NCBI RefSeq assembly: GCF_012184425.1
Contig: NZ_VTOW01000001.1
Location: forward strand, 1,116,001-1,180,000
DNA length: 64,000 nt
Reading direction: 5' to 3'
Source of the DNA: Candidatus Manganitrophus noduliformans
Lineage (GTDB): Bacteria > Nitrospirota > Nitrospiria > SBBL01 > Manganitrophaceae
Of this stretch, positions 7,075-46,220 are shown piece after piece (positions within the stretch are counted from its first letter, which is position 1; each line of letters starts with the position of its first letter). Below the pieces are notes generated by a model that saw only the letters and a list, made by a program, of their open reading frames with translations, had not been told where the DNA came from and searched no databases. Position numbers and translations under genes: made by a program.

Positions 7075-9354
7075 ATGATTCAACGATCAGATCATTCGAT
7101 CTCGGAAAACGCCCTTCGTGTGTTGGCGAAGCGCTACCTGGCAAAAGATGAAGCGGGGGTGGTGATTGAAACCCCGGAGGCGCTCTTCCGAAGGGTAGCC
7201 CAAAATATCGCTCAGGCCGAGCGGCTTTATGATGCAGGAGCAGATATCGCAGCGGTCGAGGAGGAATTCTACCGTTTGTTCTCGGAATTAAAATTCCTTC
7301 CGAACTCACCGACCTTGATGAACGCCGGCCGGGACCTGCAGCAGCTTTCGGCCTGTTTTGTTCTGCCGGTGGAAGATTCGATGGAGGGAATCTTCGACGC
7401 GATCAAGCATACGGCGATCATTCACAAGACCGGAGGGGGCACCGGATTCTCGTTTTCCCGGCTTCGGCCGAAGAACGATCTGGTCCGGACCACCGGTGGG
7501 GTCGCTTCGGGGCCAATCTCGTTCATGAAGGTCTTCAATCATGCCACGGAGGCGGTGAAGCAGGGGGGAACCCGGCGCGGCGCCAATATGGGAATCCTGC
7601 GGGTCGACCACCCGGATATCCTGGAGTTCATCCGGTGCAAGGAAGATACCCGTGAGATCACCAATTTCAATATCTCCGTCGCGGTCACCGATGCCTTCAT
7701 GGAGGCCTTTGAAAAAGGGGGCGATTACGGACTGATCAATCCCCGGACCGGAGAGCGGGTTGGGACCCTGCCGGCGTGTGAGGTCCTCGACCGGATCGCG
7801 GTGCAGGCTCACAAGACCGGGGAGCCGGGTCTTTTCTTCATCGACCGGGCCAATGAGGTCAATCCGACACCTCACGCCGGCATCATCGAGGCGACGAATC
7901 CTTGCGGAGAGCAGCCGTTGCTCCCTTACGAGAGCTGCAACCTCGGGAGCATCAATCTGGAGCGGCATCTGGTTGAAGTCGACACCCTGGAATCAGTGGC
8001 GGGTGCTAGCGGTCAATACCGGCTCGATTGGGCTGCCTTGGAAAAGAGCGTCCGGACCGCCGTCCGCTTCCTCGACAATGTGATCGACATGAACCGCTAT
8101 CCGATCGAAGAGATCGAACGGATTACCAAAGCCAACCGGAAGATCGGGCTGGGGGTGATGGGCTTCGCCCGGATGCTCTTCAAGCTGGCGATCCCGTACG
8201 GTTCGGAAAGGGGAATCGAGGCAGCCAAAACGGTCATGAACTTCATCCGGGAAACCGGCTGCGACGAATCGGTCAAGCTGGCGGAGCGGAGGGGGGTCTA
8301 TCCGAACTGGAAGGGATCATTACACGAAAAGCGGGGAGAGAAAATCCGAAACGCTTATGTCACGACCGTCGCGCCGACCGGCACCATCTCGATGATCGCC
8401 GATACTTCGGGCGGATGCGAGCCCGAGTTCTCCCTGATCTGGTACAAAAACGTTCTGGATGGGGAGCGCCTTCCCTATGTGCTCGATTATTTCATCGAGG
8501 TTGCAAAAAAAGAAGGGTTCTGGAGCGACGACCTGCTCGACCAAATCGTCAAAAACCATGGCTCGTTGCAGGGGCTGAGCTCCATTCCGGAAAAATGGCG
8601 GGAGATTTTTGTGGTCTCGCATGACATTGCGCCGGAGTGGCATGTGCGGATGCAGGCGGCCTTTCAGTCATTCTCCGATTCGGCCGTCTCTAAGACCATC
8701 AATCTGCCCTCGTCGGCCACGGTCGAGGAGGTGAAGAAGGCCTATCTTCTGGCTTACCGCCTCGGCTGCAAAGGGATCACCGTCTACCGGGACGGGGCGC
8801 GGGTGGATCAGGTCATGAACGTCGGAGTTATTCCTCAAAATACCTCTGACAATGGGGGAATGCCGGCGACAGAAAGTAAAAAAGAAGATCTGATGACATC
8901 GGAACTGCCCGACCTTATCCCGGAGCTGAGAATCAAGGTCAAGACGAAACGAGGCAATTCCTATGTCCATGTCGGATTCCTGATCAAAGAGGAGAGCATG
9001 GGAGACATTTTCGAAACCCTTCGCTCTGATGGGAGCATCCGGGAGCTTTTTCTCTCTCCTTCTCCGCACGTCAAGAACAGAGAGTTGCTCGATATGGTCT
9101 GTCGTCTGGGAAGCAAGCTGCTCCGGGCGGGCTCTCCGATCGAGGAGGTTTTAGAGCAGCTGGTGAAGTCGAACGATCAGTTCGGGGATATCAGCTCGGA
9201 TGCGTATGCGTTGGTCAAGGGGCTCACGACGGTGGTCTCCCGCGTGCAGGGAGCGACCACAATGCAACTGCCGTGTCCGGAGTGCGGTGTTTCTCCCCTT
9301 CGGATGCAGGAAGGGTGTCTTCTCTGCGGGAGCTGTTCCTGGACGAAGTGTTAA
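7075..9354 (+). CDS. nrdJ: Adenosylcobalamin-dependent (class II) ribonucleotide reductase
   Basis: A 759-residue single-chain class II enzyme that reduces ribonucleotides to deoxyribonucleotides using adenosylcobalamin. The N-terminal cone holds 'NSPTLMNAGR' and the first redox Cys ('LSACFVLPV'). Then come the loop 'GGGTGFSFS', the radical-site segment 'NPCGEQPLLPYESCNLG' with the thiyl Cys and catalytic Glu, and 'APTGTISMIADTSGG'. Around residues 620-720 a TSCPD-like domain is visible, followed by a C-terminal zinc ribbon with the CPEC and CGSC thiols that re-reduce the active site. It is an accessory-element gene that would supply dNTPs independently of oxygen when B12 is available. The frame is intact. 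Confidence 0.93.
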   Translation: MIQRSDHSISENALRVLAKRYLAKDEAGVVIETPEALFRRVAQNIAQAERLYDAGADIAAVEEEFYRLFSELKFLPNSPTLMNAGRDLQQLSACFVLPVEDSMEGIFDAIKHTAIIHKTGGGTGFSFSRLRPKNDLVRTTGGVASGPISFMKVFNHATEAVKQGGTRRGANMGILRVDHPDILEFIRCKEDTREITNFNISVAVTDAFMEAFEKGGDYGLINPRTGERVGTLPACEVLDRIAVQAHKTGEPGLFFIDRANEVNPTPHAGIIEATNPCGEQPLLPYESCNLGSINLERHLVEVDTLESVAGASGQYRLDWAALEKSVRTAVRFLDNVIDMNRYPIEEIERITKANRKIGLGVMGFARMLFKLAIPYGSERGIEAAKTVMNFIRETGCDESVKLAERRGVYPNWKGSLHEKRGEKIRNAYVTTVAPTGTISMIADTSGGCEPEFSLIWYKNVLDGERLPYVLDYFIEVAKKEGFWSDDLLDQIVKNHGSLQGLSSIPEKWREIFVVSHDIAPEWHVRMQAAFQSFSDSAVSKTINLPSSATVEEVKKAYLLAYRLGCKGITVYRDGARVDQVMNVGVIPQNTSDNGGMPATESKKEDLMTSELPDLIPELRIKVKTKRGNSYVHVGFLIKEESMGDIFETLRSDGSIRELFLSPSPHVKNRELLDMVCRLGSKLLRAGSPIEEVLEQLVKSNDQFGDISSDAYALVKGLTTVVSRVQGATTMQLPCPECGVSPLRMQEGCLLCGSCSWTKC

Positions 9355-18238: not shown

Positions 18239-18400
18239 ATGCCTGAGTTCAAATCGTATCTTCGCGCGGGGTATCCCGCGCTGTATGTCCAGACCGTGGA
18301 GCCCGAACGGGCCTTCGAGACGCTCGGCAAGGAAGTCCTGATCGTTTCGGGGGCGCCGGTTTTCTGGAAGGAAGGACAGCTCGAAGGAGAGCGACGATGA
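18239..18400 (+). CDS. Small N-terminal partner of the AAA+ ATPase
   Basis: A 53-residue frame beginning 'MPEFKSYLRAGYPALYVQT', then 'VEPERAFETL'. This is the usual first segment of Ycf46-like AAA+ proteins, where it forms the start of an N-terminal degenerate ATPase-like domain. Here it is a separate gene that overlaps the ATPase start by 4 nt (ATGA). Either the ancestral protein was split in two or this is a short partner. An AGGAGGAAGAG site precedes the ATG. Confidence 0.6.
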   Translation: MPEFKSYLRAGYPALYVQTVEPERAFETLGKEVLIVSGAPVFWKEGQLEGERR

Positions 18401-19674
18401 CGACATCATTAATAGAGCAGCTACGCGCCGCCCGCCGGGTTTCCGTTCCTCTGGCGGCGATCATCACCGCGGATCCGGCCGAAACGATCAGCGCCATCCA
18501 GAAGTCGGCGGCCGACAGTCCCCTCGTTGGGTGGGATATCATCCGTGGCATGCTTGGCATCAACGAAAAAGGAATCGATGCGGTCAATGCGGCCGTATCA
18601 GGCGGCGCCTCCGAGGGTGGACTGCTGGGAGCAGAGGCCCTCACCAACAACCCCATCGACGCGCTGACCCGAGCCGAGAAGCTCCCGGAAGGGACCATCT
18701 TGTTCTTTCACATGGCGCATCGGCTTCTTCAGGGGGAGGGGGTCTCGCAAGCGATCTGGAACCTGCGCGATCAATTCAAGCGGGATAACCGGATGCTCGT
18801 CCTGCTGGCTCCGGAGCTGACCCTGCCGGCAGAGCTGAGTCAGGATGTGCTCCTTCTGGAAGAGCCGCTTCCATCGGCCGAAGACCTCGCCCGGATCATT
18901 CGAGAGGTGCATGCCGCAGCGGACGTCCCGGAGCCCGACCCCAAGACGCTGGAGCGGGCGGTGAACGCGATCCGGGGCCTCGCCGCCTTCCCGGCGGAGC
19001 AGGTTGCCGCGATGAGTCTGACCAAAAAGGGGGTCCGGATTTCCGATCTCTGGGATCGAAAACGGCAGATGATCCGGCAGACCCCCGGTCTCTCCGTCTG
19101 GGACGGCCCGGAGCGATTCTCGAATATCGGCGGCGTCACCTATGTCAAGGAGTTCTTGACCCGCATCCTCTTTGGCAACGCGGCCCCGCGCGCGATCGTC
19201 TTCATCGACGAGATTGAAAAGCATCTCGGCGGGGTGGCCGGTGACACTTCCGGTGTTTCCCAGGCGATGCTCGGGACCCTTCTGACCTACATGTCCGACC
19301 GGCAGACCACCGGGTTGATCTTCATCGGCCCGGGGGGAACGGCGAAATCGGTCGTCGCCAAAGCGGCCGGAAGAGAGGCCGACATTCCGACGATCACATT
19401 CGACATGAGCGGGATGAAGACCGCCTATGTCGGCTCCTCCGAGGAGAACATGCGGCGGGCGTTGCGTGTGGTCACAGCGGTTTCCGATAACGCGGTCCTC
19501 TTTATCGCGACCTGCAATTCTATCGGAGCGCTTCCCCCCGAACTTCGCCGGCGCTTTTCTCTTGGGACCTTCTTCTTCGACCTTCCTTCAGCGGAGGAGA
19601 GAAAGAAGATCTGGGAGATTTATCTGAAGGCCTACAATCTCGATCCCCAGCCTCTCCCAAATGATAAGGGGTAG
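18397..19674 (+). CDS. Ycf46-like AAA+ ATPase with permuted Walker B / Walker A order
   Basis: A 425-residue reading frame. Residues 1-250 match the N-terminal part of Ycf46-like AAA+ proteins, ending 'DLWDRKRQMIRQTPGLSVWD', then 'FSNIGGV'. The AAA core is then out of order: Walker B 'IVFIDEIEK' is at residues 267-275 and Walker A 'GPGGTAKS' at 311-318. Sensor 1 'LFIATCNSIG' and the 'LRRRF' arginine segment follow. In the family the order is A, then B, then sensor 1. The frame is continuous through both junctions. It stops at an amber codon at 19672-19674, where a conserved Trp of the lid ('G-W-TG.EIR') is expected. DUF1257 and DUF2997 genes follow directly. Confidence 0.8.
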   Translation: MTTSLIEQLRAARRVSVPLAAIITADPAETISAIQKSAADSPLVGWDIIRGMLGINEKGIDAVNAAVSGGASEGGLLGAEALTNNPIDALTRAEKLPEGTILFFHMAHRLLQGEGVSQAIWNLRDQFKRDNRMLVLLAPELTLPAELSQDVLLLEEPLPSAEDLARIIREVHAAADVPEPDPKTLERAVNAIRGLAAFPAEQVAAMSLTKKGVRISDLWDRKRQMIRQTPGLSVWDGPERFSNIGGVTYVKEFLTRILFGNAAPRAIVFIDEIEKHLGGVAGDTSGVSQAMLGTLLTYMSDRQTTGLIFIGPGGTAKSVVAKAAGREADIPTITFDMSGMKTAYVGSSEENMRRALRVVTAVSDNAVLFIATCNSIGALPPELRRRFSLGTFFFDLPSAEERKKIWEIYLKAYNLDPQPLPNDKG

Positions 19675-19911
19675 ACCGGAGATGAAATCAGACGCTGCTG
19701 CGACATCGCCTGGAGATTGAGATGGTCGCTTAAGGAAGCAGCGAGCTCCATTGTCCCGATTGTCCGATCCGATTCCGATATTCTTCAGAAGCTTCGCACC
19801 CTGGCCGATGGAAAGTTTCTTTCAGCGAGCGACCCCGGCGTCTACCGGATGGAGCGACAGACCGCTTTGGCCGGCCCCCGGCGCCAGGTGAGCGTGACCC
19901 CGGAGGATTAA
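19675..19911 (+). pseudogene. AAA+ lid domain cut off by in-frame amber codon
   Basis: The same frame continues after TAG with 'TGDEIRRCCDIAWRL', then 'SLKEAASSI', the usual lid helices of this AAA+ family, and ends 'VSVTPED' just before the DUF1257 gene. Changing TAG to TGG would restore a 504-residue protein. The codons downstream look constrained, which suggests a recent mutation, suppression or a base-call error rather than old decay. Confidence 0.8.
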
Positions 19912-19912
19912 A

Positions 19913-20227
19913 ATGCCTTGCGACACAGTCCAGACCAGCAGCATCGAATTTAAAGCGGAGAATACGCCTCTCCTTGTTCAGGCCCTTGGCAGCCTCGGCT
20001 CATACAAAGCGACTTATCGAGGCGGAAGACTCGTTTCGGCGGCTCTCGATGGTATTCGGATCTTCTTTGAAGACGGTCGGATCATCGTCCCGCGAGGAAG
20101 TGAGGGCCTCATTGACCGGATCAAGCAGGCCTACTCCAGACAGATCGTCATCGCGGCCGCCAAACGCTTTGGATTTCAACTCAAGCGAACCGGAGAGAAC
20201 CGTTTCCTGGCCTTAAGAAGAAGATAA
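19913..20227 (+). CDS. DUF1257 (Ycf35-like) protein
   Basis: A 104-residue protein with the small alpha/beta fold of the DUF1257/Ycf35 family: 'SSIEFKAENTPLLVQALGSL' at the start, a middle 'GRLVSAALDGIRIFFEDG' strand pair, and 'YSRQIVIAAAKRFGFQLKR' at the end. Ycf35, DUF2997 and Ycf46-like AAA+ genes occur together in cyanobacteria, plastids and phages. Their shared role is unknown. A GGAGG site precedes the ATG 2 nt after the AAA+ lid frame ends. Confidence 0.7.
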   Translation: MPCDTVQTSSIEFKAENTPLLVQALGSLGSYKATYRGGRLVSAALDGIRIFFEDGRIIVPRGSEGLIDRIKQAYSRQIVIAAAKRFGFQLKRTGENRFLALRRR

Positions 20228-20240
20228 AGGAGTATCCTCC

Positions 20241-20447
20241 ATGGCCGATGACATTCTCGAAATAGAAATCCTTGAGGATGGCACGATCAAGACCGTCAGC
20301 GGCAAGATCGGTGTCTCAAACCACAAAGCCGCCGATGAATTCTTCAGGTTCATCGCTCAGCATAGCGGTGGAAAGATTGAGGCGCTCCGACGCCGCGGCG
20401 AGGTTCACATCCACCGTCAGCGGGCTGATCAGAAACAGAAATCGTAG
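20241..20447 (+). CDS. DUF2997 protein
   Basis: A 68-residue protein beginning 'EIEILEDGTIKTVSGKIGVS', the signature beta-hairpin of the short DUF2997 family, followed by a helix 'HKAADEFFRFIAQHSGGKIE' and a basic tail. It is the third member of the AAA+/DUF1257/DUF2997 set, spaced 14 nt from DUF1257. An AAAGGAG site precedes the ATG. A terminator follows. Confidence 0.7.
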   Translation: MADDILEIEILEDGTIKTVSGKIGVSNHKAADEFFRFIAQHSGGKIEALRRRGEVHIHRQRADQKQKS

Positions 20448-20490
20448 CCTTGCTATCGACGAAAAGCCTATCTGAGAAGATACCTTCAGC

Positions 20491-20515
20491 CCGGCGGAGA
20501 GCCCGCCGGTTTTTT
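20491..20515 (+). terminator. Terminator after the AAA+/DUF1257/DUF2997 operon
   Basis: CCGGCGG and CCGCCGG around a 5-nt loop, then six T residues. The CCAGGAGG ribosome site of the next gene starts at once and its ATG lies 14 nt after the T-run. Confidence 0.85.
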
Positions 20516-20528
20516 CCAGGAGGAAAAA

Positions 20529-21548
20529 ATGGTGACGTTTACAACGATGGAAGATCAGACCCGCGCAAGCCTCGGCTCCGATCTTCTCAACCGTTCTGTC
20601 TGCCTTTTGGTTTCATTGCGAAAACTGGGTGTCCATCGCACCGTCCGGCGAGAGAAGATCAGCCGCATCTTAAAAAATGAGGGAAACACCCTTCCTTTCC
20701 CGGAGCAGACACCCCGAGATCCGGTTCAGGTCGACGCGGATCCGCAGATGGTCCGCATTCTGAAAGTGCTCTTTAAATCTCCCGAGTATGATGCGATCTG
20801 CCGGATCGATCGGAAGATCGGAAAGTACCTGCAAACGCGCTGTCTTCCCTCTCTGCTGCGCAAGGGGGCTTACCTTCTTCCGATACCGCTGATTGAGGAG
20901 GTCGACCGGGCGCTGAGTAATTTGGCGGAGCAGCGGAAAGGATTGGTGCGGGTTTTGGCGGGGAAGTTTCCCCAGATCGTGCGGGAATCGCAGAGGCCGC
21001 TGGGGGGTCTCTTTAACCCGAGCGATTATCCTTCCGCCGAGCAGTTGGAAGAATTGTTCAGTATGGTCGTTCGATACATTACCTTCGGGGTGCCCGACAA
21101 TCTGCGGGAAGCGAGCCCATTGATCTTTCAGAGGGAACAAAATAAGGCCCAGTCGATGTGGGCGGAGGCGACGCAAGAAGTGCGCCAGGTGCTCCGTCTC
21201 GGTCTTTTAGAATTTGTGGATCGGTTGATCAATGGATTGAACCCTCGAAGCGATGGAAAGCAAAAGACGTTCAGAACGAAACTTCTTAGCCAGATTACCG
21301 ATTTTCTCGGAGTGTTCGCGGCGCGAAATATCACCAATGATGCCGAACTCGCGCAGCTTGTCGATCGGGCGAAAGAACTCCTCGCGGGAATCGATGCCAA
21401 GGCCCTCTCAAATGATCAGGATCTGAGGAGAACCCTTCAAAAGGGTTTTAACGAGGTCAAGCAGAGCCTCGATGCCATGGTCGGAAAGCAGCCTACCCGG
21501 CGGATCCTCCTCTCCGATGAAGATCCCGGCCCTTGCGAAATTTCATAA
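20529..21548 (+). CDS. DUF3150-like protein
   Basis: A 339-residue soluble helical protein. The first half follows the DUF3150 pattern: 'ICRIDRKIGKYLQTRCLPS', then 'LLRKGAYLLPIPLIEEVD', then 'LGGLFNPSDYPSAEQL'. The C-terminal half is helical with no recognised motif. The family is found on phages and plasmids, often near AAA+ or VWA genes, and its role is unknown. The family call is from memory of the motif pattern. Confidence 0.5.
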   Translation: MVTFTTMEDQTRASLGSDLLNRSVCLLVSLRKLGVHRTVRREKISRILKNEGNTLPFPEQTPRDPVQVDADPQMVRILKVLFKSPEYDAICRIDRKIGKYLQTRCLPSLLRKGAYLLPIPLIEEVDRALSNLAEQRKGLVRVLAGKFPQIVRESQRPLGGLFNPSDYPSAEQLEELFSMVVRYITFGVPDNLREASPLIFQREQNKAQSMWAEATQEVRQVLRLGLLEFVDRLINGLNPRSDGKQKTFRTKLLSQITDFLGVFAARNITNDAELAQLVDRAKELLAGIDAKALSNDQDLRRTLQKGFNEVKQSLDAMVGKQPTRRILLSDEDPGPCEIS

Positions 21549-28309: not shown

Positions 28310-29191
28310 ATGCAAAAATCAAAAACAATTCAGGCATGCTTGTCCGAGAAAACGTTTGTTCTGAAAGAGCCGATCGATGGCCCCTGGAAGGGAATTCGTC
28401 CGTATCTGGACGCCACGGGCCATGGCGGGATTCTTTCTGAGAGAATCCGCCAGGAGGTGAAAGATCGGGCGGCCCGATGGCGGAAGATCTCTCCCGCAAC
28501 GTTATTTTCCGTCTGGTTTTGGATCTGGGGAAAAGAAACCCCTTCTCCCGGATACGTGCAATGGAGCGTCCGTCCTTATTTGCAGGGGATGGGATGCGAC
28601 GGCACGACCGGTGGAGTGATTCACCTGATTGCAAGGAGGATCTGCTCTCGATACGGCTTGGATTACAAGAAACTGTATTCAAAAGCCTATCCGGGGAATC
28701 CGGCCGATTGGATCGATAGCCTGGATGACCATACGGCTGAGACCGATTCCAGTCTCTCTTTGGATCCTGCCTTGGCCATTATCGATCTGAGGGAGATCAA
28801 CAATCACAGTCTGGCCTCCCTGTTATCGGATCTGTTTGGTGCGCGTGGGATCCTAAAGAAAGAGGAAGTGTTGATCGCGAACGGTTGGGCCCGCGCGCGT
28901 CGATTGGCCGGTCTTCCCCCCGAAGAAGAAAAACCGCCTCCGACATTGGAAGAGCAGGTCTTGGCCTATCTGAATCATCCGACCGAAGAGAACTGGGATC
29001 GCCTTGCCCATCTGAACACATCTTACGGGACGGTCTGGCAGAGATATACGGCTTACACCGGCAGAGAGCTTCAAGGGCCCACGCTCTGTTTTGGGGTTCG
29101 CATCAAGGGATGGAAGCGTCTTCCTGACCCGGGGGAAGTATTCGCTTCTTTAAAAGAGGAGTTCGCGCATGAATGTAGAGACGATGATTAA
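28310..29191 (+). CDS. Hypothetical protein upstream of PRTRC ParB
   Basis: A 293-residue protein with AGAAGGAAAGACCGG upstream of the ATG at 28310. It is mixed in structure, with 'LFSVWFWIWGKETPSPGYV' in the first third and helices in the last. No family is recognised. Its frame overlaps the ParB gene by 23 nt, so it may be the first gene of the PRTRC transcript. Confidence 0.55.
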   Translation: MQKSKTIQACLSEKTFVLKEPIDGPWKGIRPYLDATGHGGILSERIRQEVKDRAARWRKISPATLFSVWFWIWGKETPSPGYVQWSVRPYLQGMGCDGTTGGVIHLIARRICSRYGLDYKKLYSKAYPGNPADWIDSLDDHTAETDSSLSLDPALAIIDLREINNHSLASLLSDLFGARGILKKEEVLIANGWARARRLAGLPPEEEKPPPTLEEQVLAYLNHPTEENWDRLAHLNTSYGTVWQRYTAYTGRELQGPTLCFGVRIKGWKRLPDPGEVFASLKEEFAHECRDDD

Positions 29192-30875
29192 ATCGATTCC
29201 TGTAACGGAGATTCATCGGGACCACAAGAATAGCCGTCAGTTTATCGATCCAAGGGCATTGGGACAGTTGCAGGACGACATTCGGAAAAACGGCCTGATC
29301 AACCCCATCACGGTAATTCCCCGGCAGGAGGGAGGGTTTTGCTTGATCGCAGGGGAGCGACGGTATCTTGCCTGCGTCAATATCGGATATCAGACGATTG
29401 CTGCCCATATCCTGGGATCTGCCGGCGAGGAGGAGGTGGAGGCGATCCATCTTGCCGAAAACCTTCAGCGGGAAGAGCTCTCCCCGATCGATGAGGCGGA
29501 AGCCTTTGAGAAGCAGTTGGCCCAAAAATCGATTCAGGACCTCGCCGCGATGATCAACCGGAGCGAAGAGTATATTCGCCGGCGGATAAAGCTGCTTCAT
29601 CTGATCCCGGAGGCGCGGGAGAAGGTGAGAGTCGGCGCGATCGGCCTCGCAGTCAGCGAGTTGCTCTCCTGTCTTCCCGACGACCGGCAGAAAACGATGC
29701 TGGCCGCGGTGGAGGAGCAAGGCCTCAACGCGGTGCAACTCTCCAATCTGCTGAACCATCAGAACGACCGGCAGTTGGTCAACGCCGTCTTTGACACGAA
29801 GGAGTGCCTCCAATGCCCCCATAACAGCGCCGGTCAGCCCGATCTCTTCGCCCGTGAGGCCTCCGGCCTTGGGAAGTGCCTCTATGATCCGTGCTGGAGC
29901 GGGAAAGAGCTTGAGAAAGCGAAATCGCTGGCCAAGCAGATCGAAGAGAGGGGACCGCGCGCGGTTATCTCTGAGAAGATGAAGATCGGCATCGACGACC
30001 TTCCCCCTGAGATCGATCAGACCCAGGCGGTCATGCACAACAAGGGAGAACTCGGCGATGAGAATCTGCGGGACTGCCAGAGTTGCAAGTTTCTGGTCGT
30101 CTTCATCTCCACGCAAGGCCACCCGCTGCGGCAGAATATCTGCACGAATCGCCCCTGCTATGAGGAGCGCGCGGCGCGGTTCCGGGGAGGAAATGCAGAG
30201 AGGAAGCCCGGCTCTATAAAGGGGGGAGCCAAGACCGCAAAAGATCCCGGTTTAAAGAATGTATCCACAGCCGGTCCGGTTCCCAAAAAGATGACCCCCG
30301 CAAACGCTCCCCAGCGGGTGAAGGATTTCAAGAGAAACAGATACCGGGAATATCTGGCCGCCCATCTCATCGAAACCCCGGAGAATCGATTGCGGCTGAT
30401 CCTCCTTGCCATGAAAGACACCTCCTGGGGGAGGATCTGGACGGGGGATCCCACTCTGAAAGAACTCAACCTGGCCTGCGACGGCTTTGAAAGCAATCCG
30501 GAGAAGCTCTATCCCAAATTGCGCGCCTTGAACGCGGAGCAGTTGATGACCGCGGCGGGGAGAATGGCCTTAAAGGCGCTCGATAAATTCTCTCTCCCTT
30601 TAATCGAGGAGATGGTCTTCACCGATCTTGGAGCCACCCCGGAGACTCTTTTTAAGATCGATCGGACCTACCTGGAACTGCTCACCAAAGCGGAGATCGA
30701 GGCCACCGCGAAGGAGATCGGCCTGACCGCCTATCTTCAAAGCAGAGGAGAATCGATCTCGAAGCTGTCCGCCCGGCCGAAGAAGGAATTCATCGATTCT
30801 CTTCTCACCTGCGGCTTTACGGCCCCAATCATGCCGGCCTGGCTTACGCGGGAGACCGCTTTTCAAAAGGGATAA
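29169..30875 (+). CDS. PRTRC-system ParB-family protein
   Basis: A 568-residue protein. The N-terminal 100 residues are the ParB/Srx nuclease-like domain with 'GERRYLACVNIGY' and 'AENLQREELSPIDEAEAF', the CTP-binding and DNA-clamp motifs of the family. A helix-turn-helix follows ('IQDLAAMINRSEEYIRRRI'). The second half adds Cys clusters ('CLQCPHNSAGQPD' and 'CQSCKFLVVF' with 'CTNRPCYEE'), typical of the PRTRC variety. It is the first recognisable member of the PRTRC set, which on plasmids is thought to aid stable maintenance. No ParA is adjacent. Confidence 0.85.
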   Translation: MNVETMIKSIPVTEIHRDHKNSRQFIDPRALGQLQDDIRKNGLINPITVIPRQEGGFCLIAGERRYLACVNIGYQTIAAHILGSAGEEEVEAIHLAENLQREELSPIDEAEAFEKQLAQKSIQDLAAMINRSEEYIRRRIKLLHLIPEAREKVRVGAIGLAVSELLSCLPDDRQKTMLAAVEEQGLNAVQLSNLLNHQNDRQLVNAVFDTKECLQCPHNSAGQPDLFAREASGLGKCLYDPCWSGKELEKAKSLAKQIEERGPRAVISEKMKIGIDDLPPEIDQTQAVMHNKGELGDENLRDCQSCKFLVVFISTQGHPLRQNICTNRPCYEERAARFRGGNAERKPGSIKGGAKTAKDPGLKNVSTAGPVPKKMTPANAPQRVKDFKRNRYREYLAAHLIETPENRLRLILLAMKDTSWGRIWTGDPTLKELNLACDGFESNPEKLYPKLRALNAEQLMTAAGRMALKALDKFSLPLIEEMVFTDLGATPETLFKIDRTYLELLTKAEIEATAKEIGLTAYLQSRGESISKLSARPKKEFIDSLLTCGFTAPIMPAWLTRETAFQKG

Positions 30876-30921
30876 ATCGATTCTGTAATTAAGACACCCA
30901 TATAAAAGAGGAGAAGCGACT

Positions 30922-31143
30922 ATGCAAGGCCCGGTAAAAATCATCATCCTCATCGAGGAGGGCGTCGTCGAAAACATCTATGTTCCCGGCGACATTGACG
31001 CCCGGTACATCGTCATCGACAGAGATGCAGAACTCTCCGACGAAATCCACAGTACTGGCCCCCAACTCGCCGGAAGCTACGGCGATCTGGAGGCCTTAAG
31101 CCCTCAGTTCTACCGGCTCGCATTCGAGGAGGAGACGGAGTGA
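30922..31143 (+). CDS. Small hypothetical protein
   Basis: A 73-residue acidic protein with an AGAGGAG site before the ATG. The first 45 residues read as alternating beta strands ('VKIIILIEEGVVENIYVPG'), and the rest is acidic. It overlaps the histone-fold gene by 4 nt, so the two are coupled. No family is recognised; the position inside a PRTRC set is the only clue. Confidence 0.6.
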   Translation: MQGPVKIIILIEEGVVENIYVPGDIDARYIVIDRDAELSDEIHSTGPQLAGSYGDLEALSPQFYRLAFEEETE

Positions 31144-31361
31144 TCCAAAAATCCAAAGTTCGGGCCTACATCCGCGAGAAGGGCTATCGTCTCTCCGCCG
31201 ACGTCCTGCCGGCGCTGAAAGATTCCGTCCAAATCATTCTCGCAGGGGCCATGGTCTACACAAAGCCTCAGAAGACCCTCCACGGGAAAGAGATCCTCAT
31301 GGCCGTCAGCCGGGAATCTCTTCTTCCGAGAAAGGAATCTCATGACAGAAGAAAAAAATAG
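31140..31361 (+). CDS. Histone-fold protein (Bd0055-like)
   Basis: A 73-residue protein whose first 52 residues fit one histone fold: a short helix 'KVRAYIREKG', loop 1 with 'YRLSADVLPAL', a long helix 'KDSVQIILAGAMVYTK', and loop 2 'QKTLHGKEIL' with the basic-Thr pattern. The run and spacing resemble the bacterial histone Bd0055 and related single-fold proteins, which bind DNA as dimers. The tail is basic ('RKESHDRRKK'). It is coupled to both neighbours by overlaps. The assignment is by motif only and the fold needs prediction. Confidence 0.55.
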   Translation: MIQKSKVRAYIREKGYRLSADVLPALKDSVQIILAGAMVYTKPQKTLHGKEILMAVSRESLLPRKESHDRRKK

Positions 31362-31752
31362 AAAACAGAGGCTTCACGAAGCCATCCGAAACGCCAAAGG
31401 GAAGCAGACCAAGCACAGGTTTTTAGCCATTGCCGTAACCGACCAGAGTGTCGAGATCCTCTCGTGCGCCGCAGGAGGGGCCTATCTGGAACTGCACGAT
31501 TACTCCACGGGTTCGGTTTCATTGGATGAAGAGGCAATTACACGGGATCTGGAGGAGTGGTTCCCGATCCTCTTGGCGAAGCAAGAAGAGAAGTATCGAT
31601 GCCCAGTATGCAGCGATGAAAAAAATGGCCTTTTCGGCCTTATCACCTGCCTCAATGACAATCACGATTACACTCGGACCCAGGTCGCCGACGTCATCCG
31701 GCCGATCGAGGAGGCGTGGGAGGCGGAAAGGAGTGTCCAGAGAGAGATATGA
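31342..31752 (+). CDS. Hypothetical protein with CxxC
   Basis: A 136-residue protein. The first 40 residues are basic ('RLHEAIRNAKGKQTKHRF'), then a beta-rich part, and near residue 85 a 'RCPVCSDEKNG' pair suggests zinc. It overlaps the histone-fold gene by 20 nt and the next gene by 4 nt. No family is recognised. Confidence 0.55.
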   Translation: MTEEKNRKQRLHEAIRNAKGKQTKHRFLAIAVTDQSVEILSCAAGGAYLELHDYSTGSVSLDEEAITRDLEEWFPILLAKQEEKYRCPVCSDEKNGLFGLITCLNDNHDYTRTQVADVIRPIEEAWEAERSVQREI

Positions 31753-31958
31753 AACTGACAAAACGGGAAACCGCCACGGTGTTGGCGGCGCTGAGGAATT
31801 GGCAGCAGGATGTACAGGAAGGGGGTTTTGTACCCAAAGAGGACTTCCCCTATCACTTCGAATCGGACGAACCGTTAAAAACCGAAGAGATCGACGCGTT
31901 GTGTGAGAAAATCAACTGCGATGACATTTCCACGGAATCGCTCGAAAATGGGTTGTGA
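31749..31958 (+). CDS. Small acidic hypothetical protein
   Basis: A 69-residue protein with an N-terminal helix ('LTKRETATVLAALRNWQQD') and an acidic C-terminus. It overlaps the preceding gene by 4 nt (ATGA). The 146 nt after the stop hold no supported feature. No family is recognised. Confidence 0.5.
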   Translation: MKLTKRETATVLAALRNWQQDVQEGGFVPKEDFPYHFESDEPLKTEEIDALCEKINCDDISTESLENGL

Positions 31959-32104
31959 GGAAGCTGGTGGAGGCCACTGGCAATCTTTCTCTTGCGTTGC
32001 GCCATATCAATTATTGGAAACCGCCGATCAGAAATTAGGGAAAAGGCTCTTCGCAAGACCAGGAGAGAATAGTCGCGCCTCGTCCAGCTCAAAACCATGA
32101 GGAG

Positions 32105-32419
32105 ATGATGAAAAATAATGATCCGAAGATCATTGTGGATCCGATCGTCTATGCCAAAAAACCAGCCCGGTATAAGGCTGTCGCTGAACCGGCCGGAGAT
32201 GGACCTGTCCTGAGCGCCGTCGAAGGAGACGCCTACCGGGAACTTCGGGTTGGCTTTTTCGATGAGAAAGGGAAGTGTGTGGCAGACGCCTATTTTACCG
32301 TCGATTCTGATACCGGCAAGCCGAGGATTCTGATCACCACCGACGGCGATGGAGACGGCGATCCGGCGATTGAAGTCTTTCCTTTACGATCTGGCGAAGC
32401 AGTCGTCAAATACTACTGA
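32105..32419 (+). CDS. Hypothetical protein upstream of PRTRC E
   Basis: A 104-residue beta-rich protein with a Pro/Lys N-terminus and 'RELRVGFFDEKGKCVADAYF', then 'GKPRILITTDGDGD', near the middle. Two adjacent ATGs follow TGAGGAG; the start could be either. An inverted repeat separates it from PRTRC E. No family is recognised. Like other PRTRC-adjacent small genes, it may be cassette-specific. Confidence 0.5.
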   Translation: MMKNNDPKIIVDPIVYAKKPARYKAVAEPAGDGPVLSAVEGDAYRELRVGFFDEKGKCVADAYFTVDSDTGKPRILITTDGDGDGDPAIEVFPLRSGEAVVKYY

Positions 32420-32438
32420 GGGATTTTGAATTAAGAAA

Positions 32439-32464
32439 GCCGGAAGAAGAAACATACTTCCGGC
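32439..32464 (+). repeat. Inverted repeat upstream of PRTRC E
   Basis: GCCGGAAG (32439-32446) and CTTCCGGC (32457-32464) around a 10-nt loop, 20 nt before the PRTRC E start. There is no T-run after it, so a regulatory or processing hairpin is as likely as a terminator. Confidence 0.45.
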
Positions 32465-32483
32465 CAAAACGAGGAGGTTCACC

Positions 32484-32966
32484 ATGTTTGATTTTAACAA
32501 GATCGCGAATCTCATCCCGCCCCAGGGAAAAGTGACCTTCACCATTACCACGGGAGAGCGGGGAAAACTGGTTGTGCTCTTCCATCCGATGTATCCGGAG
32601 GTGAAGGAACTCTCCGGGAAGGAGAAGGAGTTGTATGAGCAGGCGCGGGTGCCGCTGGTCTTCAAGGCGACCCCGGAGGAGCTCAACGAAGGGTTTATGT
32701 CGCTGATCGAGCAGAACTACGAGGAAGAGGGGAGGCTGCACCGCGCCTTCTCGGTCAAACGGGAGGCGGTCGGCAAGGCGATCGCAGGGGTTGAGAGGGA
32801 AAAGACCCAAAAGAGAGAATCAAGCCACGAGGAGAAGAGGTCTCAGTCTGATCCGACTCACCCGGATTTTCCACAGTCGGAGGAGCCTCAAAAGGTTGCG
32901 TCATCGATAGAGAAGCAGGAGACCGGCGCTGAAAAAGAGCCTTCGGCTTTCGATCTGTTCGGTTAA
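32484..32966 (+). CDS. PRTRC-system protein E
   Basis: A 160-residue protein. The first 90 residues match the PRTRC-E pattern: a helical start, a beta meander with 'KVTFTITTGERGKLVVLFHP', and 'ARVPLVFKATPEELNEGFMS'. The C-terminal 70 residues are charged and low in complexity. It opens the E-C-F-B-A-ThiF run, with a GAGGAGG site upstream. Its role in the PRTRC complex is not known. Confidence 0.75.
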   Translation: MFDFNKIANLIPPQGKVTFTITTGERGKLVVLFHPMYPEVKELSGKEKELYEQARVPLVFKATPEELNEGFMSLIEQNYEEEGRLHRAFSVKREAVGKAIAGVEREKTQKRESSHEEKRSQSDPTHPDFPQSEEPQKVASSIEKQETGAEKEPSAFDLFG

Positions 32967-32977
32967 TGGAGGAGAGA

Positions 32978-33394
32978 ATGGAAGTTCAAAGAATGGAAAG
33001 GTTTTTCGAATATGGCCAGTTGAGGCTCAGCGATCCGGACCCCGGGATGACGCCGGAGCAGGTGCGCGACTTCTACGCGGCGGTCTACCCGGAACTGGCC
33101 CAGGCGGTCGTAGGGGAGCCGGAACGCCGGGGAGCGACCCAGGTCTACAAGATCACCCGGGCGGTCGGAACCAAGGGGGGCGAGCCATCGCCCCCCCATC
33201 TTCACATGCAGTGTTCCGTCCTGCTCACCGTCGAGCAGTTGGCAGAAATATCGGAAGCAGGTCTTGAGGAAGAGAAAGGAGGAGCATGCCCGCACGACAT
33301 ACTCACGCGGTTTCTGGGAACGATACAACGGGATTCAGAACGAATGCCCCAGGAGGGGCCGCTCCCCGGCCGATTTCTCCCCCTGCTCCATTAA
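32978..33394 (+). CDS. PRTRC-system protein C (prokaryotic ubiquitin-like) with a C-terminal extension
   Basis: A 138-residue protein. Residues 1-68 match the short PRTRC-C family, the prokaryotic ubiquitin-like fold: 'MERFFEYGQLRLSDPDPGMT', then 'VRDFYAAVYPEL', then 'VYKITRAVGTKGG'. Family members usually end at or near 'GTKG'. Here Gly67-Gly68 (33176-33181) is followed by a further 70 residues with no known domain, read in frame into the next gene. Removal of that tail would expose a di-glycine end as in ubiquitin precursors. It lies beside E1-like, E2-like and JAMM genes. I chose the ATG at 32978 behind GGAGGAG. Confidence 0.78.
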   Translation: MEVQRMERFFEYGQLRLSDPDPGMTPEQVRDFYAAVYPELAQAVVGEPERRGATQVYKITRAVGTKGGEPSPPHLHMQCSVLLTVEQLAEISEAGLEEEKGGACPHDILTRFLGTIQRDSERMPQEGPLPGRFLPLLH

Positions 33395-34410
33395 TTCCCC
33401 TTCCAAAGCTCGATCCGATGTTCGCGACGGTCGACTACGCCGACAGCGGCCTTTCCGCCGGCGTCCTTGCCCGGGCGGGCTTGTGGATCTCTCGGGCTCT
33501 TCGCCGGAGCCGCTCCATTATGCCAGGTCCGTGGACCGATTCGATGCGGCCGGATCGGATTCAGGTGGAACTGGAGGCGTGGCTCACAGGGCTGTGCCAT
33601 GATATCCGATCGGAATGCTTCGGTGAAAGCGGACATCGGGTGGAGACCGGAAAATCGATCTCCTCGCGATCGTGCGCGTTGATCGTCACGCATCCGATCG
33701 AATGCAATGCGCTCTTCTGCGATGTTCTCCCTGAGATCGGGCGGGCCGACAAGCGATTGGTGGAGGCGGTGGTGGCCGCCTTGCAGACGCTGGCGTGGGT
33801 GAAGTCGTATTACACCTATGACGACCAGATCGAGCGGTGCCAGGATCTCTATGAGGAATATCTTCACGAAGCGGAAAAGGGGAGCGAAGACGAGAGATAT
33901 TTTCAGGAGAGACTCATGTGGCTTCAGAACGGCATCCCCTCGGCGTACCGGTTTCTCTTCCGGGGGAAAGACAAGCCGGTCTTTCCGGAGTTTCCGCCCC
34001 CTTCCCCGGAAGACTCCTGGTTATACGGATGGCGCCTCTGGGCGGAGGAGGTCTGCCAGATCAGCGCGAAGTGGACCCGGCCCATCCGGGAGGAAGCGGA
34101 GTCTGCGGACCGCTACGACGAGAATTTCTACCCGGAGTATCTTACACCGATCCTCTGGTCCACCTCCGATCTGCTGGTCGAAGCGTTCGAACAGGAAGTG
34201 CAAGGGCTTTATGAGAATTGTCTTGGATCGAAATCGGTCTTTCCGATCAAGAGCGCTCAGCAGGTTTCCGAGGTCCTCGCGGATCTCAGAAATCTTGGAG
34301 AGTGCTTTCGGCTGCATCTGAAAGCGTGCTCTCTGGAGAGGCCTCCGATCGCCCCGAGCAATGGGCGAGCGCCAGAGGAGGGTGAAAATGGCACAGACAC
34401 TTCATCTTAG
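33286..34410 (+). CDS. PRTRC-system protein F
   Basis: A 374-residue protein of the PRTRC-F type. After a Pro-rich leader ('PISPPAPLIPLPKLDP') comes 'MFATVDYADSGLSAGVLARA', the start of the conserved body, with helical repeats afterwards and a 'RDNLGECFRLHLK'-like end ('LRNLGECFRLHLKA'). An AAAGGAGG site lies just before the ATG at 33286, which sits 108 nt inside the extension of protein C in another frame. An ATG at 33418 is a second possible start. The function is unknown; the family occurs only with PRTRC genes. Confidence 0.7.
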   Translation: MPARHTHAVSGNDTTGFRTNAPGGAAPRPISPPAPLIPLPKLDPMFATVDYADSGLSAGVLARAGLWISRALRRSRSIMPGPWTDSMRPDRIQVELEAWLTGLCHDIRSECFGESGHRVETGKSISSRSCALIVTHPIECNALFCDVLPEIGRADKRLVEAVVAALQTLAWVKSYYTYDDQIERCQDLYEEYLHEAEKGSEDERYFQERLMWLQNGIPSAYRFLFRGKDKPVFPEFPPPSPEDSWLYGWRLWAEEVCQISAKWTRPIREEAESADRYDENFYPEYLTPILWSTSDLLVEAFEQEVQGLYENCLGSKSVFPIKSAQQVSEVLADLRNLGECFRLHLKACSLERPPIAPSNGRAPEEGENGTDTSS

Positions 34411-35113
34411 CGCCGCACTGCTCTACTACACGGGAGAAGATCCCCTGCCTGCTGAAGCGATCCATTACTGGCAGATCCATCCGATCGAGATGTCTGAAAA
34501 GGGGATTCCGCTCCTGAGGGAAGGGAGGCCCGTTCAGATGAAAGACCTGGAATCTCTTTGCAAAGCAACCCTGCCGAATCTGATCCAAAACGTCGGATGG
34601 ATCGATCCCGCTTTGCTGGCCTATGGAGCGGGAGTGGAAGGGCCCCTGGTCTTCTTCCGGCCGGAAGTTCGAAGACCCATCTATTTCGGCCGGCAGACGT
34701 CGCTGAAGTCTGGCATGGTTCTATGGCCATCGCTGGTGATGGTGGCATTCTGCCGGAAGCTCTATGTCTTCGCGACGAAGGGCCGCATGCGGCCCACACA
34801 ATCCACCTCGCTTCTGATGGCCCCTTTTCTTAACGTCGACGTCCATCATGAAGTCTGTCTGGGGTCAAGCCGGCTACCGAATGGGTGCAGGCCTCAGAAT
34901 ATGGAGGCCTGGGCCGAAGCGTTTTACGCAAGCGCTTTCACCCACAACAATGCCCCGGATCACCACTTCCTGAAAAAAGGGACGATGGTGGAACTCTGGG
35001 AAGCGCTGCTTTCGGGTAAACTAAAACGCTTTCCATATCACCTTTTGAAACCAGCCGGGATAACTCTCCGGCAGCTTCTACAAAGGATCGGATTGGATGA
35101 ATGCAAAAGATGA
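34388..35113 (+). CDS. PRTRC-system protein B (E2-like)
   Basis: A 241-residue protein matching PRTRC-B, a prokaryotic E2-like family. Residues about 90-170 hold the E2-type core: 'PIYFGRQTSLKSGMVLWPSL' with following strands, then 'LLMAPFLNVDVHHEVCLGSS', in which the Cys after 'HHEV' sits where the E2 catalytic Cys is expected. In the E2 analogy this Cys would carry the ubiquitin-like protein passed on by the ThiF protein. It overlaps both F and A. Whether thiolester chemistry occurs is not known. Confidence 0.72.
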   Translation: MAQTLHLSAALLYYTGEDPLPAEAIHYWQIHPIEMSEKGIPLLREGRPVQMKDLESLCKATLPNLIQNVGWIDPALLAYGAGVEGPLVFFRPEVRRPIYFGRQTSLKSGMVLWPSLVMVAFCRKLYVFATKGRMRPTQSTSLLMAPFLNVDVHHEVCLGSSRLPNGCRPQNMEAWAEAFYASAFTHNNAPDHHFLKKGTMVELWEALLSGKLKRFPYHLLKPAGITLRQLLQRIGLDECKR

Positions 35114-35717
35114 AATTCTTCAAACACGTCTCCCCACGGTGATGGTTCCGGTGTTTGAGCCGTTACCGGTCTTGAAAGCAGGGGAGACGCGGCTGTTGAT
35201 GGCCGAGGACGGTTTGTGGATCGAAGCGGAGGGGGACTTTGGACACTTCCGCCGGCCCCTCTGGAAGAGCCGAAGAAAATTACCCTATGGACAGGTTGAG
35301 ATAGCATCAGAGCTTCGCTGCGGCCCCATCCCACGGAAATTGGTCGAGCGATTCGCCGAGCTGGCCAACGAATGGACCGAATGGGGATGTGAGACCGCAG
35401 CCTGGATCACCTGGGGTCCAAACGTTGGTTGGGAGCTTCTAGAGCCGGAGATTCTGATTCGTGCGGCGGTCTCGGTACGATATACGTGGCCCGATTTAGG
35501 TCCCGATACCGCACTTGTTGTAGACCTTCACAGCCATGGAATCGGATCCGCATTCTTCTCCCCAACCGATGATCAATCCGATCTGGGCTTCCCCCATTAC
35601 TCGTTGGTTTTGGGCCGCTGCGGCAGGGGAAGGCCGCTCACTCAGCTTGATTGCAAGCTGCGGCTCTGTCTTGCGGGCTACTATTTCGACGAGCTGGTCC
35701 CTTGGATCCATACCTGA
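35097..35717 (+). CDS. PRTRC-system protein A (JAMM peptidase-like)
   Basis: A 206-residue protein. Its C-terminal third is a JAB/JAMM domain: 'VVDLHSHGIGSAFFSPTDDQ' fits the HxHx7SxxD metal motif exactly, with an upstream Glu in 'WITWGPNVGWELLEPE'. JAMM peptidases of this kind remove ubiquitin-like proteins from targets or mature their precursors. In this cassette, protein C with its tail after a di-glycine is the obvious candidate substrate. It overlaps B by 17 nt. Confidence 0.78.
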   Translation: MNAKDEILQTRLPTVMVPVFEPLPVLKAGETRLLMAEDGLWIEAEGDFGHFRRPLWKSRRKLPYGQVEIASELRCGPIPRKLVERFAELANEWTEWGCETAAWITWGPNVGWELLEPEILIRAAVSVRYTWPDLGPDTALVVDLHSHGIGSAFFSPTDDQSDLGFPHYSLVLGRCGRGRPLTQLDCKLRLCLAGYYFDELVPWIHT

Positions 35718-35730
35718 TTTGGAGAGACCC

Positions 35731-36531
35731 GTGCGGCATTATGTCGGTTTCAACAACAACTTGCGGCCGGTGGAGATCCATCTGGTCGGCTGCGGGGGGA
35801 CAGGGAGCGCCCTCGCCGTCCGGCTGGCACAGATCAATACCGCGCTGATCTCCCTGGGACATCCAGGGATGAAAGTCACCGTTTATGATCCGGATCTGGT
35901 GAGCGAGGCCAATATCGGCCGGCAGATGTTCTATGCTGCGGACATCGGCCATCCGAAAGCTTCGGTCCTGGTGACTCGGATCAACCAGTGCGCGGGGTTT
36001 TCCTGGGAGGCGGCGCCGATGAGATACTCCCCCAGGGGCGGTCGTTCTCCGAACCTGGTGATCAGCGCGGTCGACACCGGCAAGGCGAGAGTGGAAATCG
36101 CGGAGGTCATCCGGAAGGGAACCGCCTGTTCTAACTGGCTCGATTGTGGGAACAGCCGAAGCCAGGGACAAGTGGTTTTCGGAACCGTGCGCGGGGTGGA
36201 GCAGCCGAAAATAAAAGATGTGATCGGGCGGCTCCCGACGGTGATCGATCTCTACCCGGAGATCAGAGACCCTGCGCGGGAGTGGGATCAGGGGCCTTCG
36301 TGCTCTCTGGCGGAGGCGATCGAGCATCAGGATCTCTTCATCAATCAGTTTGTCGCAATCGAAGCGGCGGAGATGCTCTGGAAGGCCTTTCGATACGGTT
36401 TTCTGGAGTATTCCGCGGCGTATGTCAGTCTCACTCCACGGAGTACCTCGGTTCTTCCGATCGATCCGAAGGCGTGGGAGCGGTTCGGATATCGGACCTT
36501 GCGCAGAAGGAAGAGGAGAGCGGCGGACTGA
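35731..36531 (+). CDS. PRTRC-system ThiF-family (E1-like) protein
   Basis: A 266-residue ThiF/E1 fold protein starting at the GTG behind GGAGAG. The adenylation site is visible: 'IHLVGCGGTGSALAVRLAQI', 'VTVYDPDLVSEANIGRQMF' and 'LVISAVDTGKARVEI'. A Cys in 'NWLDCGNSRSQGQ' lies where E1 proteins place the catalytic or near-catalytic thiol. It would activate the ubiquitin-like protein C by adenylation. It is the last gene of the PRTRC run here. A ParM-like PRTRC protein D was not found in the window. Confidence 0.85.
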   Translation: MRHYVGFNNNLRPVEIHLVGCGGTGSALAVRLAQINTALISLGHPGMKVTVYDPDLVSEANIGRQMFYAADIGHPKASVLVTRINQCAGFSWEAAPMRYSPRGGRSPNLVISAVDTGKARVEIAEVIRKGTACSNWLDCGNSRSQGQVVFGTVRGVEQPKIKDVIGRLPTVIDLYPEIRDPAREWDQGPSCSLAEAIEHQDLFINQFVAIEAAEMLWKAFRYGFLEYSAAYVSLTPRSTSVLPIDPKAWERFGYRTLRRRKRRAAD

Positions 36532-42894: not shown

Positions 42895-43557
42895 ATGCAA
42901 TCTCTCAATCTTTCTGAGATCGCCACGACATTGAAGGAGGGGCTTCGGGAGAGTCTTTTCCCAGACAAGATCGGACTTTTTCACCCTCTCTTGCGCCTCT
43001 TGGCAAAAGGGAGCCCCGTAGCCCTCGGCCAAATTGCCGCCACGCTTCATCTCTTCCCTAGCGACGTTGCCGCGGCCCTTGGTATGTTGCGAAACGTCGA
43101 GTTTGATCAGGACGGGAACATTGTCGGCGCGGGGATCACCCTGAACCCGACCCGGCACCGTTTTGAGGTGAATGGCCGGAAGCTGTTCACCTGGTGCGCG
43201 ATGGACACGTTGATCTTCCCGATGATTCTCAACCAAACGGCCCGTGTGGCGTCGACCTGTCCTGCGACCGGAATCACGGTCCGGCTGACGGTCACACCGG
43301 GGGGTGTGGAGCACCTCGAACCCGCCGACGCCGTTGTCTCCCTGCCCAAGCTTTCAGAAACGTGTTGTGATGTGCGGGCGAACTTTTGCAATCAGGTCCA
43401 CTTCTTCAGTTCCTCCGACGCCGCGTCGGCGTGGCTCTCCGAACGCCCCGGAGCGACGCTTCTTTCCATCCAAGAGGCGTGGCGAATCGGAAGTATTTTG
43501 GTGAGCTCCCTTTTCAGGAGCGATTTGGAAATAGGTGGGACCCTTGAGTGTTGTTAA
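42895..43557 (+). CDS. merB: Organomercurial lyase MerB
   Basis: A 220-residue MerB of normal length that breaks the carbon-mercury bond of organomercurials. All catalytic residues are visible: Cys101 and Asp104 in 'LFTWCAMDTL' and Cys165 in 'RANFCNQVHFF'. The N-terminal winged-helix-like part and the 'TRHRFEVNGR' strand are in place. It starts at the ATG behind AAGGAGCG, 120 nt after merT, so organic as well as inorganic mercury resistance is predicted. Confidence 0.92.
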   Translation: MQSLNLSEIATTLKEGLRESLFPDKIGLFHPLLRLLAKGSPVALGQIAATLHLFPSDVAAALGMLRNVEFDQDGNIVGAGITLNPTRHRFEVNGRKLFTWCAMDTLIFPMILNQTARVASTCPATGITVRLTVTPGGVEHLEPADAVVSLPKLSETCCDVRANFCNQVHFFSSSDAASAWLSERPGATLLSIQEAWRIGSILVSSLFRSDLEIGGTLECC

Positions 43558-43580
43558 TCTTTTTAGGAAGGAGGCCGTTC

Positions 43581-43949
43581 ATGATAAAAGGTTTTATGAA
43601 AGCTTCCCTGTTATTTTCAGTCCTGTTATTCTTGGTCACCGGTGCGCCGGCAACCGATCACTTCAGCCTTGCGGAGGAACCCGGTGCTCTTCAAACGATC
43701 ACCTTGAAGATCGACGGGATGGATTGCGGCGCTTGCGCGAAAGAGATCCGATCGGCTCTGATGGAGAGGCCGGGTGTCAGGACGGCGGAGGTAAAGGTCA
43801 GGAAGAAATGGCTTTTCTTCGATGATTTTTCAGATGCGCGGGCCGTGGTCGAATACGAACAGAGCAAGACGACGGTGGATGATCTGATCAAGGCGGTGGA
43901 AGGGGCGAGCAATTCAATGTTCACCTACCATGCCCGGCTCATCGAGTAA
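43581..43949 (+). CDS. MerP-like periplasmic heavy-metal-binding protein
   Basis: A 122-residue protein with a signal peptide and one HMA domain. The metal motif is 'IDGMDCGACAKEIR', and the rest of the ferredoxin-like fold follows ('GVRTAEVKVRKKW', 'SKTTVDDLIKAVEG'). MerP binds periplasmic Hg2+ and hands it to MerT. It is longer than classical MerP (about 90) because of an added strand region before the end. A GAAGGAGG site precedes the ATG. Confidence 0.78.
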   Translation: MIKGFMKASLLFSVLLFLVTGAPATDHFSLAEEPGALQTITLKIDGMDCGACAKEIRSALMERPGVRTAEVKVRKKWLFFDDFSDARAVVEYEQSKTTVDDLIKAVEGASNSMFTYHARLIE

Positions 43950-43971
43950 AAATATAAGGAGGTCATAAATA

Positions 43972-44352
43972 ATGATGAAAACAAACCAAGAAAAAGCAGA
44001 AAGCGACACCCTCTTCGTCGAAATGCGGAAACTCTCCCCCCGGGTCACCGGGGGAATCATGCGGGCCCGGGAGGCCTCGTATGAAGACGGGAAAGCGCCC
44101 GGAAAGTACAAACTCCTGACCGCCCTGGCGATCTCCATTGCGATCCGGTGTGAGCCCTGCATCCGGGCCTACGTGAAGATGGCCGTGGAGCGCGGAACAA
44201 CCCAAGAGGAGCTGATCGAGTTCCTGAATGTAGCGATGACGATGCAGGGATGTCCCGGCGAGGAGTGGTCGATCAAGGCCTATGCCGCCTATAAAGAGAT
44301 CGCCGGCGGGAAAGCCCCTTCGGACAATGAGACCTCCTGCTGCGGACACTGA
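43972..44352 (+). CDS. AhpD/carboxymuconolactone-decarboxylase-like protein
   Basis: A 126-residue alpha-helical protein of the AhpD-like family with the active Cys pair in 'IAIRCEPCIRAYVKMAVERG'. It ends 'SCCGH', an extra Cys pair that could bind Hg2+. Such proteins reduce peroxides or act as thiol relays. Two adjacent ATGs are possible starts. The mer operon setting suggests a redox or mercury-binding helper. A second AhpD-type protein is encoded at 52950. Confidence 0.75.
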   Translation: MMKTNQEKAESDTLFVEMRKLSPRVTGGIMRAREASYEDGKAPGKYKLLTALAISIAIRCEPCIRAYVKMAVERGTTQEELIEFLNVAMTMQGCPGEEWSIKAYAAYKEIAGGKAPSDNETSCCGH

Positions 44353-46160: not shown

Positions 46161-46183
46161 TCGAATCCAGCCGAAAAGAGCCC

Positions 46184-46214: not shown

Positions 46215-46220
46215 AAAACC

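Follow-up and report, generated by a model that had tools for sequence, protein, structure and literature searches.

AAA+ ATPases are recognized in annotation and in textbooks by the order of their motifs, and the described proteins closest to the one reported here, the Ycf46-like AAA+ proteins of plasmids and phages (phrog_8638; loci L007, L124, and L187), run accordingly through Walker A, Walker B, and sensor 1. The usual AAA+ sheet is five-stranded and parallel, with strands in the order 5-1-4-3-2, and is accompanied by a helical lid. We analyzed a stretch of 64,000 nucleotides from Candidatus Manganitrophus noduliformans (hereafter the window) containing an AAA+ gene that shares with the Ycf46-like proteins its N-terminal body, catalytic residues, lid, and gene module, but in which β3-α3 comes before β1-α1-β2-α2. 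The family to which this gene belongs would be a natural exception to the rule of motif order.

The open reading frame of the window gene occupies 18397–19674 (+), encodes 425 aa, and ends at an in-frame TAG; along it follow the body, Walker B, Walker A, sensor 1, and the arginine finger. A sequence-only reading of the window had placed Walker B (IVFIDEIEK, residues 267–275; 19195–19221, +) ahead of Walker A (GPGGTAKS, residues 311–318; 19327–19350, +), with sensor 1 and an arginine segment after them, and these positions are exact in the frame. Sensor 1 reads VLFIATCN (residues 367–374, with N374 at 19516–19518, +), and the arginine finger is R386 (19552–19554, +) within LRRRF (residues 383–387). 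The N-terminal body (18403–19164, +; residues 3–256) matches positions 3–250 of the canonical profile collinearly with 89 bits, placing a Ycf46-like body at the start of the protein. The Walker B block (β3-α3; 19183–19305, +; residues 263–303) corresponds to canonical positions 325–365, moved upstream, and the Walker A block (β1-α1-β2-α2; 19309–19497, +; residues 305–367) to canonical positions 268–330; inside the latter lies a pore-loop-like motif, YVG in the window copy (19426–19434, +) and mostly LVG across the family. Sensor 1, the arginine finger, and the first part of the lid (19489–19674, +) resume the canonical series from position 366.

The canonical profile behind these assignments was built from 33 canonical relatives and has 501 positions, with Walker A at 274 and Walker B at 332. 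It fits 79 of the 80 aligned permuted members as four pieces with constant breakpoints, whose median canonical limits, taken in chain order, are 3–249, 328–366, 267–326, and 367–496, so that the Ycf46-like relatives align to the permuted proteins in swapped and not in collinear order. The 80th member (L075) has a diverged Walker B stretch that keeps its D and E at the same place. Canonical positions 251–266, the linker leading into β1, find no match in permuted members. Compared profile to profile, the permuted family and the canonical relatives match at E=2.1e-73; the window protein meets phrog_8638 in four stretches (E=1.3e-42) rather than in one collinear match over the whole profile, whereas the canonical relative L124 meets the same profile in a single stretch. 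The Pfam AAA model matches permuted proteins only in pieces or in part, and they can therefore be misread as broken. The suspected clean exchange of two blocks is thus borne out across the family, and we read these alignments as a non-circular permutation in which the β3-α3 and β1-α1-β2-α2 blocks are cleanly swapped. One could still suppose that the upstream DEIEK is a decoy and that another acidic motif, located after Walker A, acts as Walker B with the normal order kept. We found no support for such a decoy: the DEIEK segment matches canonical 328–366 (β3-α3), and the interval from Walker A to sensor 1 holds only the β2-α2 stretch (~50 aa), which matches its canonical counterpart. With both acidic residues invariant in all 80 members and mapping to canonical β3, we regard the decoy as ruled out, its probability being very slight.

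The catalytic residues are kept throughout the swap. D271, E272, G311, G314, K317, N374, and R386 are invariant in the 80 permuted members and position 318 is Ser or Thr in every one; the members therefore carry the Walker A signature GxxxxGK[ST] or an accepted variant of it, the hhhhDE of Walker B, the polar residue of sensor 1, and the arginine finger. What departs from the AAA+ pattern is the order, as all 121 permuted loci that we identified run Walker B, Walker A, sensor 1. The P-loop, GPGGTAKS in the window, does differ from GPPGTGK, as had been remarked, but this is largely a feature of the family: Ala precedes the Walker A Lys in 41 of the 80 members, Gly in 34, Ser in 4, and Cys in 1. 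Ala at this position is also seen in MoxR-type AAA+ proteins and is therefore no sign of inactivity.

Classified by the canonical-relative profile, the swapped order occurs in the 121 loci as 110 distinct sequences and the canonical order in 75 loci, two counts that say nothing of relative abundance because the scans were queried with the permuted alignment. The permuted loci comprise 79 viral (IMG/VR) contigs, where first one case and then many came to light, 26 genome contigs, and a remainder of phage and genome loci, a few being overlapping stretches of one gene. Homologues with the same order had been proposed as a thing to look for in phages and plasmids, and tblastn and degenerate-pattern scans recovered it in gp103 of the isolated phage Tunturi_3. 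Bacterial contigs with a permuted gene are labeled Nitrospirales, Armatimonadetes, Acidobacteria/Bryobacterales, Deltaproteobacteria, and Myxococcales, and members are found in the window's own class too. A scan of genome contigs with the single window protein as query found none; with a three-member alignment as query, members were recovered. Separately, the permuted AAA+ gene at L082:5986-7944 (IMGVR_UViG_3300031772_000003) carries an intein-like insertion of ~150 aa exactly at sensor 1, which reads as a mini-intein (...AIAT / CLTGDTLV...VVHN / CNN...). Inteins favor the active sites of working enzymes.

These occurrences bear directly on the possibility that the window holds a canonical gene rearranged by chance, or misassembled, in this one genome. 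Such an event would suit the presence of a canonical relative in the same genome and of a canonical gene remnant directly upstream, but the order is shared with an isolated phage and more than 100 further loci, and the window protein is closer to permuted relatives (identity up to 57%) than to the canonical genes that occupy this operon position within its genus (about 27–29%). An order that recurs in 121 loci of independent assemblies can be attributed neither to chance nor to faulty assembly; this explanation is ruled out, and we leave it a negligible probability. On the sequence comparisons, then, the swapped order is a family trait and not a local rearrangement, and the earlier suggestion of a rearranged non-functional gene falls for the family as a whole. 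The family is widespread in phages and mobile elements and, as far as we found in the literature searched, is undescribed.

AlphaFold2 was given the 80-row alignment of permuted members, with Trp substituted for the TAG in the full chain, and returned confident models of both the full chain (pLDDT 94, pTM 0.88) and the core alone (pLDDT 92.7, pTM 0.88). DSSP assigns five strands to the model (β3 266–270, β1 305–310, β2 332–335, β4 367–373, and β5 391–393), the lid helices are predicted as well, and the joins of α3 into β1 and of α2 into β4 take ~3 residues each. A chain that begins with β3, laid onto the usual sheet, implies crossovers β3–β1, β1–β2, β2–β4, and β4–β5; we infer the sheet order accordingly and predict that the usual sheet forms, with β3-to-β1 and β2-to-β4 crossovers in place of β2-to-β3 and β3-to-β4. 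The best Foldseek matches are p97/Cdc48, Rix7, and NVL for the full-chain model and Vps4, FIGL-1, and p97 D2 for the core-only model, with TM reaching 0.66 even though the alignment is sequential; the inability of such alignment to follow the swap accounts for the high rmsd of the full-length fold searches. An alternative arrangement is a three-dimensional domain swap, in which the Walker B block packs into the neighboring subunit and the core forms between chains. AAA+ proteins form rings, and packing of this kind could ease the altered connections; however, AlphaFold2 closes the core within a single chain with high confidence, also when given the core alone, and α3 is joined to β1 by only ~3 residues. 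We consider the domain swap improbable and prefer a core closed within one chain. Of the two options originally put forward for this gene, a permuted core that folds with altered strand connections is the one supported, by the family, its invariant residues, the selection described next, and the confident predicted fold.

Nei–Gojobori (NG86) estimates in close permuted pairs, where synonymous sites are unsaturated, give dN/dS of 0.05–0.11 and show the permuted genes to be under purifying selection. When the four blocks are concatenated in canonical order, the tree unites all the permuted members in a single clade (support 0.94), with the canonical L007/L187/L188, from Manganitrophus plasmids and the window's own taxonomic order, as its sister; these canonical sisters sit in the same gene module. 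Trees of the N-terminal body, of sensor 1 to lid, and of the core agree on this sister at lower support (very weak in the case of the body), and that of the Walker A block (60 columns) fails to recover the clade; the blocks are too short for single-block trees to be informative. The simplest reading of the tree is a single origin, via block transposition or via tandem duplication and loss. Intermediates with duplicated Walker A/B blocks, which would favor tandem duplication and loss, were sought and none came to light; repeated blocks turned up only in ordinary multi-AAA proteins. Overall, we think it very likely, from the alignments and the model together, that the window gene belongs to a monophyletic AAA+ family whose non-circularly permuted core is conserved and folds.

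The window gene heads a module of AAA+, DUF1257, DUF2997, and DUF3150 genes at 18397–21548; in L007, the module is the same except that its AAA+ is canonical. Both small genes were assigned in the window by homologous clusters and position. The DUF1257-like protein (19913–20227, +) belongs to a family with members near 80 of 122 permuted loci, in every case on the same strand; PF06868 matches only some of these relatives (e.g., L110, E=2.9e-8), and the window copy gave no direct match to Pfam. The DUF2997-like protein (20241–20447, +), named by position and size without a Pfam match, has homologues near 47 permuted loci on the same strand. The DUF3150-family protein (20529–21548, +) has homologues close to 110 of the 122 permuted loci, without exception on the same strand; a relative matches PF11348 at 5.5e-8, and the window protein is 28% identical (E=1.8e-30) to the DUF3150 protein of the canonical module at L197. 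A radical SAM activating-enzyme-like gene (PF13353) is often found downstream of the permuted module, as at L100:9889-10539 and its relatives (~12 permuted loci).

Just upstream, a short frame of 53 aa (18239–18400, +), whose stop overlaps the start of the permuted gene (ATGA), retains the 5' end (~43 codons) of a same-family AAA+ gene in canonical, unpermuted order; it is 60–89% identical over up to 44 aa to the N-termini of the canonical genes that L197, L199, and L200 carry at this operon position. Nucleotide homology of the backbone stops at 18335 (against L197) or 18367 (against L199), inside the canonical gene's first 43 codons, and picks up again at 21542. Between these points lies a cassette (18368–21541, +) consisting of the permuted AAA+, DUF1257-like, DUF2997-like, and DUF3150 genes and flanked by a backbone common to elements with the canonical module; genus member G399 has the same backbone, mostly at 73–91% protein identity, with a canonical module at the same place. 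We conclude from these breakpoints that the cassette replaced a canonical one in place, leaving the scrap at 18239–18367. Genus member G397 presents the reverse: its canonical gene is intact, and decayed fragments of permuted AAA+, DUF1257-like, and DUF2997-like genes lie nearby; at L199 (G397:C499:1-8000) these remnants of a permuted cassette lie between two backbone genes, beside the intact canonical module. Judging from the two arrangements, replacement between the module types has gone in both directions at one locus within the window's genus, and the remnants suggest that the permuted module can be lost again. Because replacement took place at the same position, the two modules probably do the same job. 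The window element also carries PRTRC genes at 29169–36531 (ParB, E, C, B, A, and ThiF), which point to a plasmid-like or integrative element. Inspection of the window by eye additionally indicated mercury resistance-like genes at 43548–46649 (a metal-binding protein, a mercuric reductase-like protein with an N-terminal metal-binding domain, and a MerR-like regulator) and a B12-dependent-type ribonucleotide reductase at 7075–9354.

The state of the window copy itself is a separate matter. Its frame had been taken as continuous over 18397–19911, but it is open only to 19671: a TAG at 19672–19674 (+) falls on the conserved Trp codon of WTGxEI (residue 426) and makes that frame discontinuous. In the alignment of permuted members, 77 of 80 relatives have Trp at this position, encoded by ordinary codons. 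Past the TAG, the frame stays open to 19911 as recognizable lid sequence (19675–19911, +; TGDEIRRCCDIAWRLRW... / TGDEIRRCCDIAW...), now cut off, so the window copy may be truncated; as both sides of the TAG are open and conserved, any loss would be recent. We give an even chance to the view that the permuted family is real and the window copy a pseudogene, in which the TAG has cost the protein part of its lid and its function, which host functions or another, canonical copy in the genome would supply instead; this is compatible with our main explanation. In its favor are the position of the TAG, in frame and on a conserved Trp, the decay of the permuted cassette in G397, a member of the same genus, and a canonical family copy on contig C7 of the window's own genome; on the other hand, the TAG may be a sequencing error or be read through, and the C7 copy is itself split by a probable group II intron. 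If the window copy has lost function, as is possible, the loss would have come through the TAG and not through rearrangement. The canonical gene on C7 (L005; G000:C7:98500-106188, reverse strand) carries an insertion of ~2.3 kb with a 570-aa reverse transcriptase/maturase-HNH frame, probably a group II intron.

Our preferred explanation, which we hold to be likely, is a clade of working AAA+ motors whose non-circularly permuted core arose once and whose module is interchangeable with the canonical one at the same locus. The chain runs from the N-terminal body through β3-α3 with Walker B, β1–Walker A–α1-β2-α2, β4 with sensor 1, and β5 to the lid, and the protein would bind and hydrolyze ATP between ring subunits by means of the arginine finger. 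More tentatively, it could serve phages and PRTRC-type mobile elements as a p97/MoxR-type remodeling motor with DUF3150 and DUF1257-like partners, acting on a protein complex of the phage or plasmid. The permuted cassette of the window has replaced a canonical one in place, and this copy may later have been shortened by the TAG. The literature searched gave no function for the AAA+/DUF1257/DUF2997/DUF3150 module, canonical members included; in cyanobacteria, DUF1257 and DUF2997 genes adjoin a ferredoxin gene (PMC4284462).

The classic AAA proteins (p97/Cdc48, Vps4, Rix7, and NVL; PDB) resemble the window protein as the best Foldseek matches of its model, as the best sequence matches of its Walker A block, in the arginine finger, and in an aromatic-hydrophobic-Gly pore-loop-like motif, but differ from it in motif order, at about 13–19% identity. 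In the open-access literature searched for a permuted AAA+ core, swapped Walker motifs, or non-circular permutation, we found no AAA+ case. If our explanation is right, the family represents a natural non-circular permutation of the AAA+ core; with its swapped blocks, conserved catalytic residues, and canonical sisters in the same module, it amounts to a natural experiment on folding topology and on how topologies originate, in which replacements in both directions directly test the tolerance of the fold to rewiring. Changed motif order in P-loop NTPase cores has been described for the circularly permuted GTPases (YlqF/YRG family and cpRAS), in which YRG proteins keep fold and activity (PMC2430557); those cases are circular permutations, whereas here two internal blocks are swapped without rotation. 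A non-circular permutation does occur in another phage protein, the capsid protein of BPP-1, a natural variant of the HK97 fold in which the fold is kept (PMC3863775), though that protein is structural and no ATPase. Together, the permuted GTPases and the BPP-1 capsid protein indicate that rewiring of the kind proposed here for an AAA+ core can persist.
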